DNA of 64,000 bases from Daphnia pulex (Eukaryota; Arthropoda; Branchiopoda; Diplostraca; Daphniidae). The stretch spans positions 4,092,001 through 4,156,000 of the forward strand of contig NC_060020.1 of NCBI RefSeq assembly GCF_021134715.1, in the 5' to 3' direction. A model generated the notes under the pieces. It had not been told where the DNA came from and made no database searches. It saw only the letters and a program-made list of their open reading frames with translations. Both the position numbers and the translations under genes were made by a program. Of the stretch, positions 48,837-64,000 are shown piece by piece; position 1 is the first letter of the stretch; every line of letters begins with the position of its first letter.

Positions 48837-51257
<2,421 letters not shown>

Positions 51258-52762: not shown

Positions 52763-55384
52763 ATGGCAGATACTGAAAATTACGATGCGGGTTCCGAAAA
52801 TTCATCACAAGCATCTGAGCAAGAAAAAGCCTTGGCGTTAGGCGCCCAAGCCGAATTCGAAAAGAAAAACTATGCAGCCGCCATCCAGCTTCTTTCAAAG
52901 TTGGAATCCTCTCGTCCACAGGATCCAAAAGTTATTCACAACAAAGCCATAGTGAACTGTTTTAAAGCTGGCTTGACGAACATTTCCCAGCTCCGTAAAG
53001 CTCTCACCTCAATTGCCAAACAATTGCAGTGCAATCTTGAGGACCCGAAAACCCTGGTGGATGTTGATCAATGTTATGTGTTTTACAATGAAGCTGTCAC
53101 ACTATATTTTCTAAGACAATATCCAAAAACATTGCAAATATTAACTAAAATATTCTCCCTCGTTGAGCAATTGGATGAGAGCCTAGCCCGCCAAGTTTGT
53201 TTTTTGCTAGCTGAAGTCTATCTGCGTTTGAATTTCCCCATCAAAACTTTGAAGATGGTTCACTTCATGGAAACAAGTTTGTTGAGTCATGGGGCAAAAC
53301 TCAAGTCTACTCTACCTCTAGAGAGGGAACGTGACAAGGAAAAGGATTGTGAAGGGAAGGAAGACCTCAAGAGTAGTTTCGGTGATGAGTTACTTATCCC
53401 ACCTGGAGTAAGGATACGTCTGCAGCGTTTGAAAATTCGAGCAAATCTTTCACTTTCTAAAAGGGAAGAAGCTGAAAGAGAGTTGGCTCTCTTATCCGAA
53501 ATTGATCCCGAGAACGCCGCCACTCTGTTTCTAAAAAGTAAAACTCTTTTCGTTAAAGCCAACTATGCCGAATCGTTGAAGCAGTTCAAACTACCCGAAG
53601 ATGACGGCCTTTTTAAGGAGCGAGGTGAATCTGATGTTGTTATGTATCACAACAACACTGGTTGCGTATATCACGCCATGGGAAAATACCACCTGGCATG
53701 TCTTCACTTTCACAAATCTCTCAACAAAAGTAGCGAACTACTTGCCGAGTTTCCCAAACCCGTGTCAGGTAATTATATTATTCTTGCATTTTTTATAAAT
53801 GATTTATTTAATGTTTATTGTTTCTTTCATATTAGGGGATCCAATCTCTAATCGGCCTTTGGTGACTATCGGCAGTAACTATAAATACGAGCTTCTTTAC
53901 AATATGGGTGTCAGTTTATTATACGCTCGTAAACCGGCCGATGCCTTCGATTGTCTCATTGAAACTGTGCAACTCCACCACAGGGATCCGTTGATCTGGT
54001 TGCGATTAGCGGAATGCTGTATTCAAGTGCACAAACCTGTAATTATCTTTTATCTCGTTATTTTCTTATTCACGTCGTATCTGATAACCCTTTTGTTTTC
54101 TGTAGGAAAATAGAAAAGATTTTCGGTTGACCGAGAGACAGCGGGAAATTGTTAAGGCAACAGCTGGATTCGGTTCTCACAGAAAAGTGATCCTGTCTTC
54201 CAGAATATCCAATGACAACTGTAAAAGGTACACAATTCTACTTTTAAGTAGTTTTTCCATCTTTAACTGTACTATTAAAAATGTTAACGTGTTGTTGTCA
54301 GTTCGGAGAACGCTGCCATTCCGGTGCCAACACTAGAATTTGGCACCTTAGCTCTGCGAAATGCAGAACTATTGCTCAACAAATTAACAATACCAAATAG
54401 CACTGAAGGTATTTGCTTAATCAATTTGCTGTCAAGTTTCTCGATTGAATTTTTTCTATTCCGATTATTTCAGATGTTGGTAATAAAGATGAATCCGATT
54501 CGAAAGGGAAACCGGATTTAAATGTGACACTCAGTGAAGTGTCAACCTTGTCAAAATTACGCAAACCGGAATTCTACCGGAACTTGAAGAATACCATCAT
54601 CGCCGACAGTTCGTATGCAGCTCTCTGTTTGGGTGATTACCTAACTTCTCTCTACAAAGCAGAAGAATTATTAACACAGCCACATTTATCAGGCAATCAC
54701 AAGTATGTTTTATATCTTGCATAATTTTATCCCAATAAATGTTATCGAAATCATTTACATTCGCAGGTTGCTGGGTCACTTGTATGCGGCTGAATCGCTA
54801 GTACTTTTGAATCGAATCAATGAAGCAGTTCCACATCTTCATCCAGAAAATGTGACAAAACTTTCAAATTTCTCTCCCTCTGAGAGTGAAATAACCCAAC
54901 ACTTGCCTCATACCTCAGGTGAGCTTGATATTTAATTTCCAACCGACAATTTTATTTAATTTCCTGTGCTTTTTTTTTTGTGGGGAGAAAAGATTGGTTT
55001 CCGCTGTCTACACAAACCGCCAAGGTGGTGCTCCAGTACAATCTGAGCACCGTGTACGCCATGAGAGGCGAGTACGACAAGGCAGGAGAATTAGTCCGCC
55101 AGGTACTGCACGAAAATGATTTACAGTATCGTCATCCTGGGACTATTTTAATGAATCATTCTTCATTTTTGCAGTTGTGGAATGCCAGCAAGAGTCACGG
55201 TATCGACGTCCCAATCCAAGTGGTTACACTGGCCTTGTACGTCGAACTACAATTAGGTAACATTGTCTATTCGATTATTAGTAGATTCTCCATGAACAAG
55301 AAAGGTTCAAACTGTTTACTCTCTGCAGGGCGGACAGAAATTGCTCGCAACATCATCAAGCAGCATTGCCCGCAGTATCGATGA
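52763..55384 (+). CDS. CNOT10: CCR4-NOT complex subunit 10
   Basis: Nine exons: 52763-53768, 53836-54038, 54106-54227, 54302-54408, 54474-54702, 54767-54918, 54993-55102, 55175-55256, 55329-55384; 688 aa (human 744). It is a TPR-type helical repeat protein: [93 protein letters not shown] at the end. The start follows the family N-terminus (acidic, then the first TPR). CNOT10 pairs with CNOT11 on the CNOT1 N-terminus and supports cytoplasmic mRNA deadenylation and decay, including decay triggered by miRNAs. The acidic linker after exon 4 ([13 protein letters not shown]) is poorly conserved, which may account for the shorter length. Confidence 0.94.
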
Positions 55385-57007: not shown

Positions 57008-57982
57008 ATGCAACGCACCAAGGTAAACAACTTTCATTTGAAATGGCAAACAAACAATCAAGAGTATGTCTTTCTAAATATATCTATCTATAAATTCGCT
57101 GTATGTATGTATGCCACACCAGTATTGTTCTTCCTTCTTCTCACGGGCCTTGTAGTACGGAACCCCCTTTTTTGTTCATCCCCACATCAACAGCCCCCTT
57201 GTACCCTCTTTCCCACACTTCCTATAGACCGACATTTTCTGTATGTATTTATTCCATCTGAAGAAAAAGGCCGAGCGAAACCAAAAACTTTTTTTTTTCT
57301 TTTTGTCTACCATTTATAATGTATTCTATTTCTCCGTGTTTAGGCCTATTTTAGCCCCCTTCTTCTTTCTGCTGCACCAGCGGCTTCTCCAGGCGACCTC
57401 CTGGGTGGAGTGATGGTGTCTTCTTCCTCGCCATCTCCACCCGATGCTGCGCTCTTGCTCGGGTAAGAAACCAACAACTCACACATTCTACCCAACACAC
57501 ACACACACACTAGAGTTTCTCTCTGTCAGAGGTTTTTGGTAAACAACTTTTTTGAGGGAGAACGCCCTTGGATATTTATAAGGGAGAAGAAAGAGAGAGA
57601 GAGGGTCACGGAACCGTGGAAACAAACAACATGAACCCCCCCTAAAAACCAGAAACCCTCTTCTTCTTTTCCCTTCTTTGGCACAAACACGTAGACCTCT
57701 CTCTCTCTCTACTGCAGAGTCTCTTTCTTCTTTCCTTCTTCTTTTACGATGATGACAATTGATAGACACAAGGGCACGGCCTCTCTCTCTGTGTGTGTCG
57801 TCATACCTCTATAAGGCTGGGGGTCTAGAGACAAATGGGTGGAACTGTCGTTACACATTTGACAATGGATTCAGCCAACCTATAAGTAGTAGGTAGAAAA
57901 AAAGAAATATAAAGAGGATTATTGTGTATGTTGTAGGCCAGATTTCCACGGGCGAAATGCTAATCGCATTGATCAACGGAGA
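57008..57982 (+). other. TRIM71 5' exons, leader or N-terminal extension
   Basis: Three exon-like segments join in frame to the main start: ATG 57008 to 57022 (donor AAG|gtaaac), 57344-57462 (donor CGG|gtaaga), and 57937-57982 running into ATG 57983. Together they would add 60 residues (MQRTKAYFSPLLLSAAPAA...). No stop interrupts them. The vertebrate start, MASFP-type, matches MASVFP at 57983, so these may simply be untranslated exons. Confidence 0.4.
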
Positions 57983-60469
57983 ATGGCTTCCGTCTTCCCG
58001 GATCCAGACGCTCCGACCGAGAGCCAACATTGCCCCATCTGCTTGAACCGTTACGACGATCCTCGAGTCTTACCTTGCTTCCATACCTATTGCCGTCGAT
58101 GCCTGGATGCTCACGTGGCCGGCCGGCTCCGCTTCCCCTGTCCGTCCTGCCGGGAAGAAGTCTACCTGGGCGAGGGAGGCACCATCGACACTCTGCCCAC
58201 CAATTCCTTCATCGGTGATATCCTCAAAGTGGTCAGCGACGTTCCAGAATATGATTCGCCTTCCGTCCTGGATCAACGCGGCAGCGGCAGCGGAAGCGGT
58301 TACGAAACCGCAGTAGGAGCCGCCGCCAAAATGGTGCCCAGTAGGGCCTACATTTGTTCAAATTGCGACGAAGGAGCCGTGGCATCTTCGCGCTGCCGCG
58401 ACTGCAACGAAGTCCTCTGCGACAGCTGCGTTCGAGCTCATCAGCGCGTCCGTCTCACCAAAGATCATTACATTGTCCGATTCACCGAGGATTTGTCCAA
58501 AACCGTTGGATTGCCCGTCGGTTTGTCGCTCTTCTCCAGTCCCTCATTCTCCTACTGCGACATCCATCCGGCCGAAGTCCTCCGTCTATTCTGCGACATG
58601 TGCTCGGTGGCCATTTGCTCCGAGTGCACTCTGCGCGATCATCGCGGACACTCGTTCATCTACCTCAAGGATGCCGTGGAGAACTCCAAAACGATAAGCC
58701 TCAAATTGCTGGCGGATGCAAAGGCCGGAATGCGGGCTGTGGAAGAGAGTATGGAGATGACCAGCAAAATGGCCGAGCGGATTGAATTGAGAGCTCAAGC
58801 CATCGCCACCGAAATACGGACGGCCACTCGCCGTCACATGGCCGCGCTGGAGGAAAGAGAGCGGGAATTGTTGCAGCGGGTCGAGAAAATCCGACAAGTG
58901 AAAGGCAAATCGCTTCACTTGCAATTGGATGAATTGCGGATGGCTTTGCTCCGTCTCGGATCCACAGCCGAACTGTTGAAAACGGCCCTCGAATCCGGCT
59001 CCGACGTGGAGATCCTTCACACTAAAGACAAGGCTTTGATCGAGTTCCAGCATCTTCGACAAATTCGTAGCAGTTTACAACCTCAAGAAGATGACATTAT
59101 CCAATTCAATCCGCCCGATGGCGCACTACTCCAGGCCATTTGCTCTCTGGGTCTCATTTCCAGTTCCGGATTCGGTCCAACTTCCGTTGCATTCGGGGAT
59201 GGCATTAAACGAGCCCTGTGTAATCACGTGGCTTGCATGACAGTCCACGTCAAAGACCATCAAGGGGATGCCCGTCTGGTAGGAGGAGATCCCATTGTGG
59301 CCATTGTCGAAGGACCCAATGGAGTCTCTTACCGTGCGGATGTCGAGGACCGACAGAACGGCACTTACGTCATGACTTATCGACCTCAAGTGGAGGGTCG
59401 GCACATCATCACCGTGTTGATCCGCGGCCGTCACATCCACGGATCGCCTTTCACTGTCAAAGTCCGCAGCGGACGGGATTACTCGACCGTCGGTCAGCCT
59501 TTGTTGGCCTTCGGGAAAGAGGGCGAATCGGAAGGCGACTTGTGTCGTCCGTGGGGCGTGGCCTGCGACAAGGATGGATACATCATCATCGCGGATCGCA
59601 GCAACAACCGCGTCCAGATTTTCAATTCGGCTGGTGTCTTCCATCATCGATTCGGATCGCCTGGCACCCGCCCGGGTCAATTCGATCGTCCAGCTGGCGT
59701 CGCCTCCGATCATCTTGGCCGTATCATCGGTTTGTATTTACACTACGAAATGTCTTAACTTTGACTCGTTTCATTAGGTTAATTGGATGTTGTTGATTTT
59801 AGTGGCCGATAAGGACAACCATCGCATCCAAGTGTTCACGTTTGACGGGACGTTTCTCTTCAAGTTTGGTGAGAAAGGAACCAAGAACGGCCAGTTCAAT
59901 TACCCGTGGGATCTGGCCGTCAATGCGGAGGGTCACATTTTGGTGTCTGACACTCGAAACCACCGCATCCAGCTCTTTGCAGCCGACGGCACGTTCATCA
60001 ACAAGTACGGCTTCGAGGGAACACTCTGGAAACACTTCGACTCGCCGCGCGGTGTGTGTTTCAATCACGAGGGCCATATCGTCGTCACGGACTTTAACAA
60101 TCATCGCTTGTTGGTCATCAATCCCGATTTCCAGTCGGCTCGATTCTTGGGGTCGGAAGGCTCGGGCAACGGCCAGTTCTTGCGCCCGCAAGGTGTGGCT
60201 GTCGACTCCGAGGGTCACATCATTGGTACAGGCATTTTTAAACGGTGAAATCTTGGAAATTTTCAATCATTTCTTTGTTTTGTTAAATAGTGGCCGATTC
60301 GCGTAACCATCGCGTTCAAATTTTCCAACCCAACGGGAACTTTTTGACTAAATTCGGGACTCAAGGAGCGGGACCCGGACAGATGGATCGACCCAGTGGC
60401 GTCTGCATTTCACCTGAAGGCTACATCATCATCGTAGATTTTGGTAACAACCGAGTGCAGATTTTTTGA
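57983..60469 (+). CDS. TRIM71: TRIM71/LIN-41, TRIM-NHL RNA-binding ubiquitin ligase
   Basis: Three exons: 57983-59729, 59803-60225, 60291-60469; 782 aa (human 868). Domains in order: RING ([20 protein letters not shown], about 17-56); B-box 1 ([17 protein letters not shown], about 120-160); B-box 2 ([16 protein letters not shown]...HRGH, about 192-232); coiled coil to about 350; filamin-type Ig (about 400-495); six NHL blades (VADRSNNR-like cores) to the final FGNNRVQIF. Blade wording such as [20 protein letters not shown] is nearly identical to vertebrate TRIM71 and nematode LIN-41. The NHL propeller binds stem-loops in target mRNAs and represses them; the RING is an E3 ligase. The gene keeps stem or juvenile states and is repressed by let-7 in worms and vertebrates. 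The RING is intact here; fly Wech lacks one, to my knowledge. Confidence 0.96.
58660..58667 (+). promoter_or_regulatory. let-7 8-mer seed match inside TRIM71 coding sequence
   Basis: CTACCTCA within the B-box 2 region, where it encodes part of FIYLK. The amino acids are conserved, so the match may be incidental. Confidence 0.3.
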
Positions 60470-60846
60470 GGCTCAAAAACTCCAAGCTCTTTTTTTTTTT
60501 TTTTCAAAAGTTCCCACCCTCCTTTTTCTCTCCACCCCTCTTCCTATATGATATAAGATATGTTCTTATAGATTTCCTCTTTTCATTCTTCTTTTTTTTA
60601 CCCCCCAGCGATTGACCCCCTTTTTTTTATTTGTTAAAAAAGAGAGGCCCAGAAACTCTCGCTTGCCACCACCACCACCAATGTTCCTGCATAGTAGAAA
60701 TAATCTCGCCGAACAGAAAGAAAAAAAAAATTAAATAGGAAAAAAAAAACGACCGAGTCTCTTCCCCCCTCCCAACTTCCCTAGGAAACGAAAAAATAGG
60801 GAGCGAGCCCTCGCGTCGTGTGGAGATAAAAATATATTATATAGGC

Positions 60847-60864
60847 GAGAGAGAGAGAGAGAGA
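60847..60864 (+). repeat. (GA)n microsatellite
   Basis: Nine GA dinucleotides in the TRIM71 3'UTR. Confidence 0.9.
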
Positions 60865-61108
60865 AATTTTTGTAGAGAAACCCAAAACGCGAATTCCTCT
60901 TGAAAGTACAAAAGCATTTTCAAACGCAAGAGAACTAATTTTTTTACATTCAGATAGGTTTTTTCTTTCTTTCTAAGTTCAGTTTTGTATTCTTCGGTCG
61001 GAAACCGTACAACCCCCCCCCCCTCATACATGTTTGCTATGATGAAATTGAAAGGGAAAACCACCGTAAAATTTTTCATTAAATTGTCGTCTCAATTGTG
61101 TCGCCTGA

Positions 61109-61116
61109 CTCAGGGA
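61109..61116 (+). promoter_or_regulatory. miR-125/lin-4 8-mer site in TRIM71 3'UTR
   Basis: CTCAGGGA pairs with positions 2-8 of the lin-4/miR-125 seed (CCCUGAG) with A opposite position 1. It is 640 nt past the stop codon. Confidence 0.6.
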
Positions 61117-61195
61117 AGCACCACGCAGGACTTGTCCCAGTTTTCCAAAACTTTCGCACTGTTGATGGCCATCGTTGATTTTTTGATCGAGGCAG

Positions 61196-61202
61196 CTCAG
61201 GG
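61196..61202 (+). promoter_or_regulatory. Second miR-125/lin-4 seed match in TRIM71 3'UTR
   Basis: CTCAGGG, a 7-mer match 87 nt after the first site. Confidence 0.5.
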
Positions 61203-61970
61203 TGTGCGAAATGTTTTTGTGTTTTTGATACTTTAGTGCATGGACTCGGCGGAAAGAGAATTTTTTTTTAAAAAAGGGAAAACAAAACGCGAGTTTTTCT
61301 TATATGTTTTGTAGACTTTAAAAAATAAGCAAAATGGATCACCACGAAAGGATATATAATTAGATTCGTATGCTCCAGTACTACTCCTCAGAAAATCGAA
61401 CCGAATTCAGTACGATGACCAATTTACAATTAAAATGAAGCAGTGCAAAAACTATTATGTACGTAAAATCGTCTCCGATTGAAAGGAAGCTTCTTTTATT
61501 CGTTTTGTTTCATACGTAAAATCTAATTGTGATGAAGACAGGGATAAATACGTATATGACTTTTCGTTCAATTTGCCTCAATTCAGCCTCCCAACGTAAA
61601 ATCTCTTTTTTTTTAAATGGCGAGAAAAAAACATCTACAAAACCATACGTACCACAGTTTAACTGATTAGAACTTGTTTTTTCTTTTAATTTTGTTTTCT
61701 AAAAAAAAAAGAATGCGGGAAAAGAAAGAGTTGAAGAAAATTCAAAATTTTGAAAGCGAACTTGCTTGGCTACCAAGTGGTTCCAGAAGCAATCATGACG
61801 CTCGTTTAAGTAAAAAAGCGCATACTATTTGTAGTTCCTTATGAAGGTTTGGTGCTTGTTTTCGTTCCTTTGAATTAAACAAACTTAAAAAAATCGACAC
61901 AAAAACTAAAAAAAAAAAAAAAAACTAAAAGATAAAAATTCTTTTAAAAAATTTAACCATTTCCATGGAT

Positions 61971-61978
61971 CTACCTCA
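61971..61978 (+). promoter_or_regulatory. let-7 8-mer site in TRIM71 3'UTR
   Basis: CTACCTCA is the full 8-mer complement to the let-7 seed (GAGGUAG) plus the A opposite position 1. It lies about 1.5 kb past the stop. Confidence 0.6.
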
Positions 61979-62138
61979 TCCGATTTATTTCTCTTTTTAC
62001 TAAAAAACCAGGCATTTGTTATTTTGTTTCCCTTATATAGCGTGTATCCTTTTTTTTTCTCGAAATATTTGTGTATGTGTTTTATGTTAATCGAAATCCT
62101 CCTTTCGATGCAACGGCAGTTCCTCACGATAAACAAAA

Positions 62139-62145
62139 CTACCTC
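62139..62145 (+). promoter_or_regulatory. Second let-7 seed match in TRIM71 3'UTR
   Basis: CTACCTC, a 7-mer. The A/C-rich bases upstream (GATAAACAAAA) could give partial pairing to the let-7 3' half. Confidence 0.5.
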
Positions 62146-63680
62146 TCTCGTGGTATATCGCCAGAAAATTTCAATATTTTTCAACCGCGTACAACCAGTG
62201 TGTCTCTCCTATTTTTCGACTTATGTTTGTTGGTAGTTGTTTACGACTATAAATGTAGAGGGTGTCAGTTGCCCAGTTTTTTAGCGTTGAAAGTGATGCG
62301 GATATTTTTGAGCCAATTATCCTCTCAGGAAAAGTAAACTGCAACTTGGTTGCATTTGTCGGGGTTCATTTCTTTTTAGTAGATTAGATTAATTTTGTTT
62401 GTGTCCTGGAATTTTAACCTTTTTCAAATATGGCGCTTCAAAAATGTTCATGTCCCAAATGGTTTAGACCAAACAAAAGTTTCGCCCTACCATTTTCTTC
62501 CTCTAACACGTATGTTGTCGTCTGTGTCGTCGATTTACGTAAAAAAAAAACATGTTCGTGATTTGATTTCTTACTTCAATTAACAAAAAGTTCCTAAACC
62601 ATTTTCCTCATGCATTTCTCTCAATCCTAATTTTCCAAAATGATTAACAATTAATGCAAACTCCAATGTTCCTATGCGTTTCTTCTCGATCCTTTTTTGT
62701 TTGTTTTAATTCTTACCCCAGGAATTGATTTAAATTTGTGGATTCAAAATTGTCCCTCATTGTGTTTCTCCCAGAATTGTTTATTTTTTTTTGGCTGTCG
62801 GGTCAGAGCTTATTTACGAACTCGTAGAGGTAATCTGCTAACAAACAGAAAAACTGCACACCCACTAAGAAAAGGAGGTGACAAAGTCGACGGATAAGAT
62901 CCGTATCGAAAGAAGGGCTGCACCGGATGCTGGAATCTTTCTCGTACAACTTTGAATTCCGGCCGGTTTATGACCGAGAAAAATACTAAGCCCAACACTA
63001 AATATAAACCCACCCAACTCGCGCATCGGGCTCAACAGCCTCCTCCCCTTTCACTACTTAAAACACAAAAGATCAAACCATTTGGTTCCTAACTAAAATT
63101 TAATTTGCATTCTCTCTCTTATTTTTTCCTTTTCTTCTCCTCTTTTACGACAAAAAAAGACAAAAATTTAGAAATCGATATCTTTGTGAGCTTGGCTTAT
63201 CAATGGATAATATGTTTTTAAGTTTCACTGTTTTTGAGTAAAAACCAGTTAGTGTACTGTTTTTGTTAGTAGTGTTTTAAACGCCACCCAATTTTCTTCA
63301 CAGCCCCCACCAGCTAAAAAAAAAATATATAGCGACTGTCAATTGTTCGCTTTAAAACAACGCTATTCCGGTGGTTTTGGTGAATCCATCATTTCCTACA
63401 CAAAAAAAAATTCAGTTCATTTCTTTTTTGAGAGAAAGAGAGTTAATAGCAAGGCTCTAATTTTTGTCTTTCTTTCTCTTTTTTCCCCCCGGAGTTTGTA
63501 TCCTCTCTGGTGTCTGTCCTTTTTTTTTCTTAAATTCTATCCACATGATTTTGTTTGACCAATTCACAACTCTTAAAAGTATCACTGCCACTTGTGAAAC
63601 TAGCTTTGTAGAAGAAGCAGCTTGCGGAGATTTTTCTTCTTTCAATCCCGATTGTACGACTGTCTTCTATTCATTTGGGA

Positions 63681-63707
63681 AATAAACGTCTTGAAAAAAT
63701 AAATAAA
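63681..63707 (+). terminator. Poly(A) signals ending TRIM71
   Basis: AATAAA at 63681-63686 and at 63702-63707. On the opposite strand an AATAAA (TTTATT at 63717-63722) faces them, which suggests a convergent gene entering from the right edge. Confidence 0.5.
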
Positions 63708-63710
63708 ACT

Positions 63711-64000
63711 TTGCTTTTTATTTATAGCCTTGGTCGAAGATACGCATGCACTAGACCCTTTTGGATGACGTCTGAAACATATCGACTTTGATCGCACTTG
63801 TTGGGGTTTCATCCGGTCCTCGTGCCCCAATAGTTCATAGTGCGTGTCATAGCCCATCCTTGGCAAGTTAGAGCTTGAAACGTTTGGTCATGTGCGGAAA
63901 GATAATTAGCAGTCTAAGGCTTCTGTGTGCTTCGCCATCTAATCTTGTCAACTTCGACGTCAACAAACCTTTTTTTGTTCTTGCTGACTTGTTTTCAAGT
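63711..64000 (-). other. Right edge: possible 3' end of a convergent gene or RNA
   Basis: Less AT-biased than the preceding UTR. A minus-strand frame (63642-63866, PRMGYDTHYELLGHEDRM...) runs across the minus-strand poly(A) signal, so it is probably not a complete CDS. The segment contains an inverted repeat TTGGGG...CCCCAA separated by 18 nt (about 63802-63831). Identity unknown. Confidence 0.25.

Follow-up and report, generated by a model that had tools for sequence, protein, structure and literature searches.

Is LIN-41 under the control of let-7 in a crustacean? The question is raised by a locus of Daphnia pulex, where an earlier note on this DNA pointed to let-7 seed words downstream of a gene that it took for TRIM71/LIN-41. 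According to a passage of PMC4979967, let-7 and miR-125 co-target lin-41 in worm and mouse, and a passage of PMC4382986 says the same for bilaterians generally. The window, that is, the whole stretch of DNA that was analysed, covers 64 kb (contig C4, 4092001-4156000) of a genome of 133.19 Mb in 13 contigs. The gene and its presumed 3' untranslated region (UTR) are laid out as follows.

57983..59729, + strand: first coding exon of TRIM71/LIN-41, likely start ATG at 57983, encoding the RING finger, two B-boxes, the filamin repeat and the start of the NHL propeller (Pfam, reading frame); splicing placed by eye (GT-AG, frame)
59803..60225, + strand: coding exon of TRIM71/LIN-41 with NHL repeats (Pfam, structure-sequence comparison)
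60291..60469, + strand: last coding exon of TRIM71/LIN-41, stop TGA at 60467-60469
60470..63720, + strand: presumed LIN-41 3'UTR, about 3.2 kb, its first AATAAA at 63681
63681..63707, + strand: three AATAAA (63681, 63698, 63702) ahead of a T-rich stretch, probably polyadenylation signals

The three coding exons, joined at splice sites chosen by eye, give a protein of 782 residues, and an in-frame stop at 57890 lies upstream of the candidate start. RING, B-boxes, filamin repeat and six NHL stretches all fall within this one predicted protein (Pfam). Against solved sequences, the top four matches are all TRIM71 (513-623 bits), and the weaker relatives are Thin (241), TRIM3 (187), Brat (147) and Mei-P26 (97 bits), all among the best 60 of 121 matches. 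The subfamily assignment consists of these bit scores against solved structures, with Wech absent from the best 60 of 121. Elsewhere in the same genome, matches to the protein reach at most 58.5 bits. Judged by domain make-up and bit scores, the gene is the LIN-41/TRIM71 orthologue, as the earlier note had supposed. Upstream of it, open frames at 49484-51257 and 52763-53851 resemble HSP70 and SRP72 by eye.

Whether the seed words can act on LIN-41 depends on where its mRNA ends. Because the first AATAAA after the stop falls at 63681, both let-7 sites probably lie within a 3'UTR of about 3.2 kb. Four ATTAAA precede them, at 60730, 61078, 61429 and 61874, and any of these could end the mRNA early. 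If the mRNA mostly ended at such an upstream ATTAAA, the let-7 sites would belong to a long isoform only, or would never be used. That is improbable in our view: four is the number expected by chance (4.03), whereas AATAAA is missing for 3210 nt after the stop, an absence found in 89 of 5000 shuffles and thus a hint that early ends are avoided. Same-strand open frames also begin within the next kilobase downstream, with a methionine at about 64320 in window numbering. The next same-strand gene may therefore start near there, which leaves room for a long LIN-41 3' end. Further frames there look like portions of a protein kinase, with scores under the Pfam cut-offs.

Along this presumed 3'UTR, and once within the coding sequence, the following words match the seeds of let-7 and miR-125.

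58660..58667, + strand: let-7 8mer CTACCTCA in the coding sequence, reading Ile-Tyr-Leu-Lys
61109..61116, + strand: miR-125 site 1, 8mer CTCAGGGA, seed match in the LIN-41 UTR
61196..61202, + strand: miR-125 site 2, 7mer-m8 CTCAGGG, seed match in the LIN-41 UTR
61971..61978, + (sense) strand: let-7 site 1, 8mer CTACCTCA, duplex -17.9 kcal/mol
62139..62145, + (sense) strand: let-7 site 2, 7mer-m8 CTACCTC, duplex -16.2 kcal/mol, in the context CTACCTCT (62139-62146)

The two let-7 words in the UTR had been described as lying about 1.5-1.7 kb past the stop, and both are indeed at these places, in the sense direction, starting 1501 and 1669 nt beyond the TGA. Each matches let-7 positions 2-8, with an added A making the site at 61971 an 8mer. 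Seed matches of 7-8 nt, as a canonical let-7 target has in its 3'UTR, are present in what appears to be the 3'UTR here. The two sites are mid-UTR and 168 nt apart, too distant for the close-spacing effect, which needs 15-35 nt according to a passage of PMC4979967. The 8mer in the coding sequence is probably weak or incidental.

The second pair of words escaped the earlier note. The sites at 61109 and 61196 match positions 2-8 of miR-125/lin-4, with duplex energies of -15.0 and -16.2. No match to miR-100 (TACGGGT) occurs in the LIN-41 UTR.

How many such words would be found by chance was estimated by dinucleotide shuffling of the presumed UTR (60470-63720, 3251 nt), in runs of 4000 and 5000. 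CTACCTC is seen twice against 0.095 expected, and at least two copies arise with P=0.004 in the 4000 shuffles and in 15 of 5000 in the second run. The claim that two would be unlikely by chance therefore stands, with a shuffled value about half the expectation of 0.2 given for it. CTCAGGG is likewise seen twice, against 0.042 expected (at least two: P=0.001 in 4000 shuffles; 7/5000 in the second run). The let-7 pair and the miR-125 pair occur jointly in 0/4000 and 0/5000 shuffles, that is, 0/9000. Counted together with the miR-125 pair, the sites exceed chance.

The let-7 pair taken alone is less striking, being unusual at roughly the 0.3-3% level. Among the 7-mers with four G/C, 36 of 4480 occur at least twice in the UTR, and among the anagrams of CTACCTC, 3 of 105 (itself included) do so in this pyrimidine-rich sequence. 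Over the 64 kb and both strands, CTACCTC is found 6 times against 3.18 expected, a number reached by 8 of 100 shuffles and not significant. For CTCAGGG, the anagram control returns 1 of 420, the word itself alone being present twice. On the antisense strand of the LIN-41 UTR, both words are absent. When stretches of 3251 nt were stepped along the window, 37 of 1215 on the + strand held two of each word, all of them around the LIN-41 UTR; on the - strand of the window, 0 of 1215 did.

A panel of 54 conserved microRNA seeds sets these words among others. Twelve seeds of the panel are matched in the UTR, with miR-125 ranking first (P=0.0008), let-7 second (P=0.0040) and miR-276, with three matches, third (P=0.0070). 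Summed over all its seeds, the panel gives 17 matches against 10.3 expected, while the antisense strand gives 5. Since both the panel total and the miR-276 trio are above expectation, part of the seed excess is not specific. There is thus some general excess of seed words, at the head of which stand the two predicted by the known circuit. Correcting for 54 seeds leaves let-7 by itself short of significance (0.004 x 54 = 0.22), and it counts only as a seed named in advance. The three copies of AGTTCCT, which we take to be the miR-276 seed, lie at 61833, 62118 and 62589 (P=0.007 for one test).

Could every seed match simply be a chance word in a long, pyrimidine-rich 3'UTR? The anagrams of CTACCTC that recur and the somewhat raised panel total, with miR-276 in third place, are what such an account would lead one to expect. 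The joint excess of both seeds named by the circuit, found in none of the 9000 shuffles, and their ranks of 1 and 2 among 54 speak against it, and we regard it as quite unlikely.

On both strands of the 133.19 Mb there are 1887 matches to CTACCTCA and 1641 to CTCAGGGA, rates that lead to about 0.023 and 0.020 expected, respectively, per strand in 3251 nt. Their reversed control words have 4128 and 1670 genome matches. Elsewhere, at C1:291893-293120, six copies of CTACCTCA recur at an exact spacing of 244 bases, in a tandem repeat that bears the let-7 seed word.

An origin of the sites from a transposon or other repeat is ruled out by their single-copy surroundings and dissimilar flanks. The stretch 60950-62300 has itself as its sole match in the genome, and flank identity within the pairs is 32% and 20%, so that pair members are not local duplicates. 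In viral_contigs, an exact scan for the first let-7 site gave no match, and a scan with the LIN-41 protein found no relative. Two other TRIM-NHL loci, on C6 and C2, served as a paralogue control, with 10 kb taken around each. The C6 stretch has no CTACCTC and the C2 stretch a single copy, upstream of an 851-codon frame. One CTCAGGG lies in the C6 stretch, about 3.2 kb beyond the last NHL match and ahead of the next AATAAA; the 3'UTR of this paralogue may hold one miR-125 match.

Predicted accessibility separates the two pairs of sites. In RNAplfold (settings 150/100, 8 nt), the let-7 sites at 61971 and 62139 have predicted unpaired probabilities of 0.48 and 0.59, the 90th and 93rd percentiles of the LIN-41 UTR, and the let-7 8mer at 58660 in the coding sequence has 0.090, the 59th percentile. 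The miR-125 sites at 61109 and 61196 are predicted at 0.000 and 0.001, the 2nd and 4th percentiles; as far as prediction goes, they are not the accessible sites of a miR-125/lin-4 target. Accordingly, the let-7 sites could be real targets while RNA structure buries the miR-125 matches, which would then be silent and incidental. The near-zero accessibility of those matches is what this account draws on, but shuffled sequence folds just as stably as the region around them (z -0.23), so the burial prediction is soft. Against it also speaks that CTCAGGG shows the greatest excess among the 54 seeds of the panel and is the only one of its 420 anagrams to occur twice. We hold it to be unlikely, though worth keeping in mind.

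Elsewhere in the UTR, the folding segments 61870-61989 (z -2.5), overlapping the first let-7 site, and 61990-62109 (z -2.2), just after it, are among the lowest of 79, with weak folding energies of -9.4 and -13.7 kcal/mol. The lowest z of the 79 UTR segments is -2.9, at 60550-60669, just past the stop codon. Rfam returned nothing at gathering thresholds over the window, and two chance-level matches only over 60400-64000. Taken with the z scores of -0.23 around the miR-125 sites and -2.9 at the lowest, these searches leave a structured RNA element or a hidden microRNA hairpin in the UTR unsupported.

Control by let-7 further calls for the microRNA itself, and the same genome encodes it. A let-7 pattern (seed plus 20-nt pattern) has one exact match, on the minus strand of contig C2, where the mature let-7 reads UGAGGUAGUAGGUUGUAUGGUU within a long hairpin, with a folding energy of -79.5 kcal/mol over 200 nt. 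Against Rfam let-7 it reaches 44.2 bits where 53.5 is the gathering score, a shortfall that a long loop would lead one to expect. The identification comes from pattern and hairpin. The 3' end reads UAUGGUU here and UAUAGU in the honey bee primer in a passage of PMC4932443. A miR-100 lies 205 nt upstream of let-7 (Rfam mir-10, 50.5 bits, above gathering). About 1.1 kb downstream of let-7 is miR-125, UCCCUGAGACCCUAACUUGUGA, in a hairpin of -30.6 kcal/mol that scores 25.1 bits against Rfam mir-10, under the gathering score of 47.5. Given this weak score, the mir-125 call is based on the mature sequence together with the hairpin and the position within the cluster. All three microRNAs lie on one strand within 1.3 kb. 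For miR-125/lin-4, then, both seed matches in the apparent 3'UTR and a candidate microRNA gene in the genome are found.

The same let-7/miR-125/miR-100 cluster is reported for Daphnia magna in a passage of PMC6828783. Read counts in juvenile, subadult and adult animals are given there as 424752, 667761 and 855758 for let-7, 4795, 6321 and 9744 for mir-125, and 3037, 5280 and 5761 for mir-100. The precursor seen here is about as long as the 179 nt that the same passage gives for the let-7 precursor of D. pulex.

LIN-41 is probably a target of let-7, and possibly of miR-125, in this animal, as an ordinary conserved control operating in a crustacean. The genome contains the LIN-41 gene, the microRNA genes and the sites, the latter in greater number than shuffles give. 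The microRNAs of the let-7 complex would rise towards adulthood, and Argonaute loaded with let-7, perhaps also with miR-125, would pair with the sites in the LIN-41 3'UTR. Such pairing would lower LIN-41 protein, which in turn would release the mRNA targets of LIN-41 itself. What we infer is where the mRNA ends, that Argonaute binds and represses it, when this happens, and that the circuit descends from one shared by bilaterians; the persistence of the ancestral circuit is suggested by the seed matches and the gene content of a single genome.

Known systems differ from the Daphnia arrangement in various ways. The C. elegans lin-41 carries two imperfect, closely spaced let-7 sites, and imperfect let-7 sites are named in the title of a 2004 paper by Vella. 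Daphnia shares with C. elegans the microRNA family, the 3'UTR location of the sites and an orthologous RING/B-box/filamin/NHL target; in contrast, its seed matches are perfect and 168 nt apart, and its UTR is longer. Drosophila dappled/wech is likewise an arthropod homologue of lin-41 and, going by the title of a 2008 paper by O'Farrell et al. (cited in PMC5834285), is said to be regulated by let-7. The arthropod case is therefore not new, and the part of the earlier note that called it less clear finds no support; the let-7:lin-41 circuit that it proposed here is favoured by the TRIM71 gene, the let-7 gene, the sites on the sense strand, predicted to be open, and the miR-125 co-sites. Drosophila Wech is not known to have a RING finger, whereas the LIN-41 of Daphnia has one.

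A passage of PMC5908797 describes the NHL of the Wech subfamily as diverged from TRIM71 and LIN-41. Drosophila chinmo offers a further parallel, since let-7 and miR-125 from one transcript co-target one mRNA there (a passage of PMC4979967); two microRNAs of one transcript share an mRNA, but the target gene differs. The mouse lin-41 3'UTR responds to both let-7 and miR-125 according to the same passage. Daphnia resembles mouse and vertebrate Lin41/TRIM71 in its canonical seed sites for both microRNAs, whereas its circuit is proposed from sequence, with miR-125 sites that prediction places in closed structure. In the brain of the honey bee, higher light-induced Trim71 accompanies lower let-7, a correlation only (a passage of PMC4932443). 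The part of PMC1976426 consulted contains nothing on insect lin-41 sites. No paper on lin-41, let-7 and Daphnia together was found, which carries little weight as most subscription literature lay outside the search.

The let-7:lin-41 pair is among the oldest microRNA-target pairs known and the circuit itself is already known, so that Daphnia is plausibly a further example of it rather than a new type of system. A bolder proposal, for which the chances seem to us a little under even, is that this crustacean keeps the whole ancestral module: a RING-bearing LIN-41 under let-7 and miR-125, a clustered let-7 complex, and lin-28 under let-7. Drosophila has reportedly lost that module in part. If the proposal were true, Daphnia would be a genetically tractable arthropod with a worm- and vertebrate-like timing circuit, and developmental timing would become testable in it, outside worms and mammals.

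The lin-28 part of this proposal draws on a cold-shock exon on C10, which scores 48.0 bits, over the Pfam cut-off. The frames after it read, by eye, as the rest of the LIN-28 cold-shock domain and two zinc knuckles; a zinc-knuckle family search was too unspecific to aid the identification. The likely stop overlaps GTAAGT, a possible splice donor, which makes the likely 3'UTR uncertain. From that stop to the next AATAAA, about 727 nt, there is no CTCAGGG and one CTACCTC, against 0.012 expected.

C10:12566511-12576510 (locus L029), base 2215 from the reverse-complement start, minus strand: let-7 match CTACCTC in the likely lin-28 3'UTR
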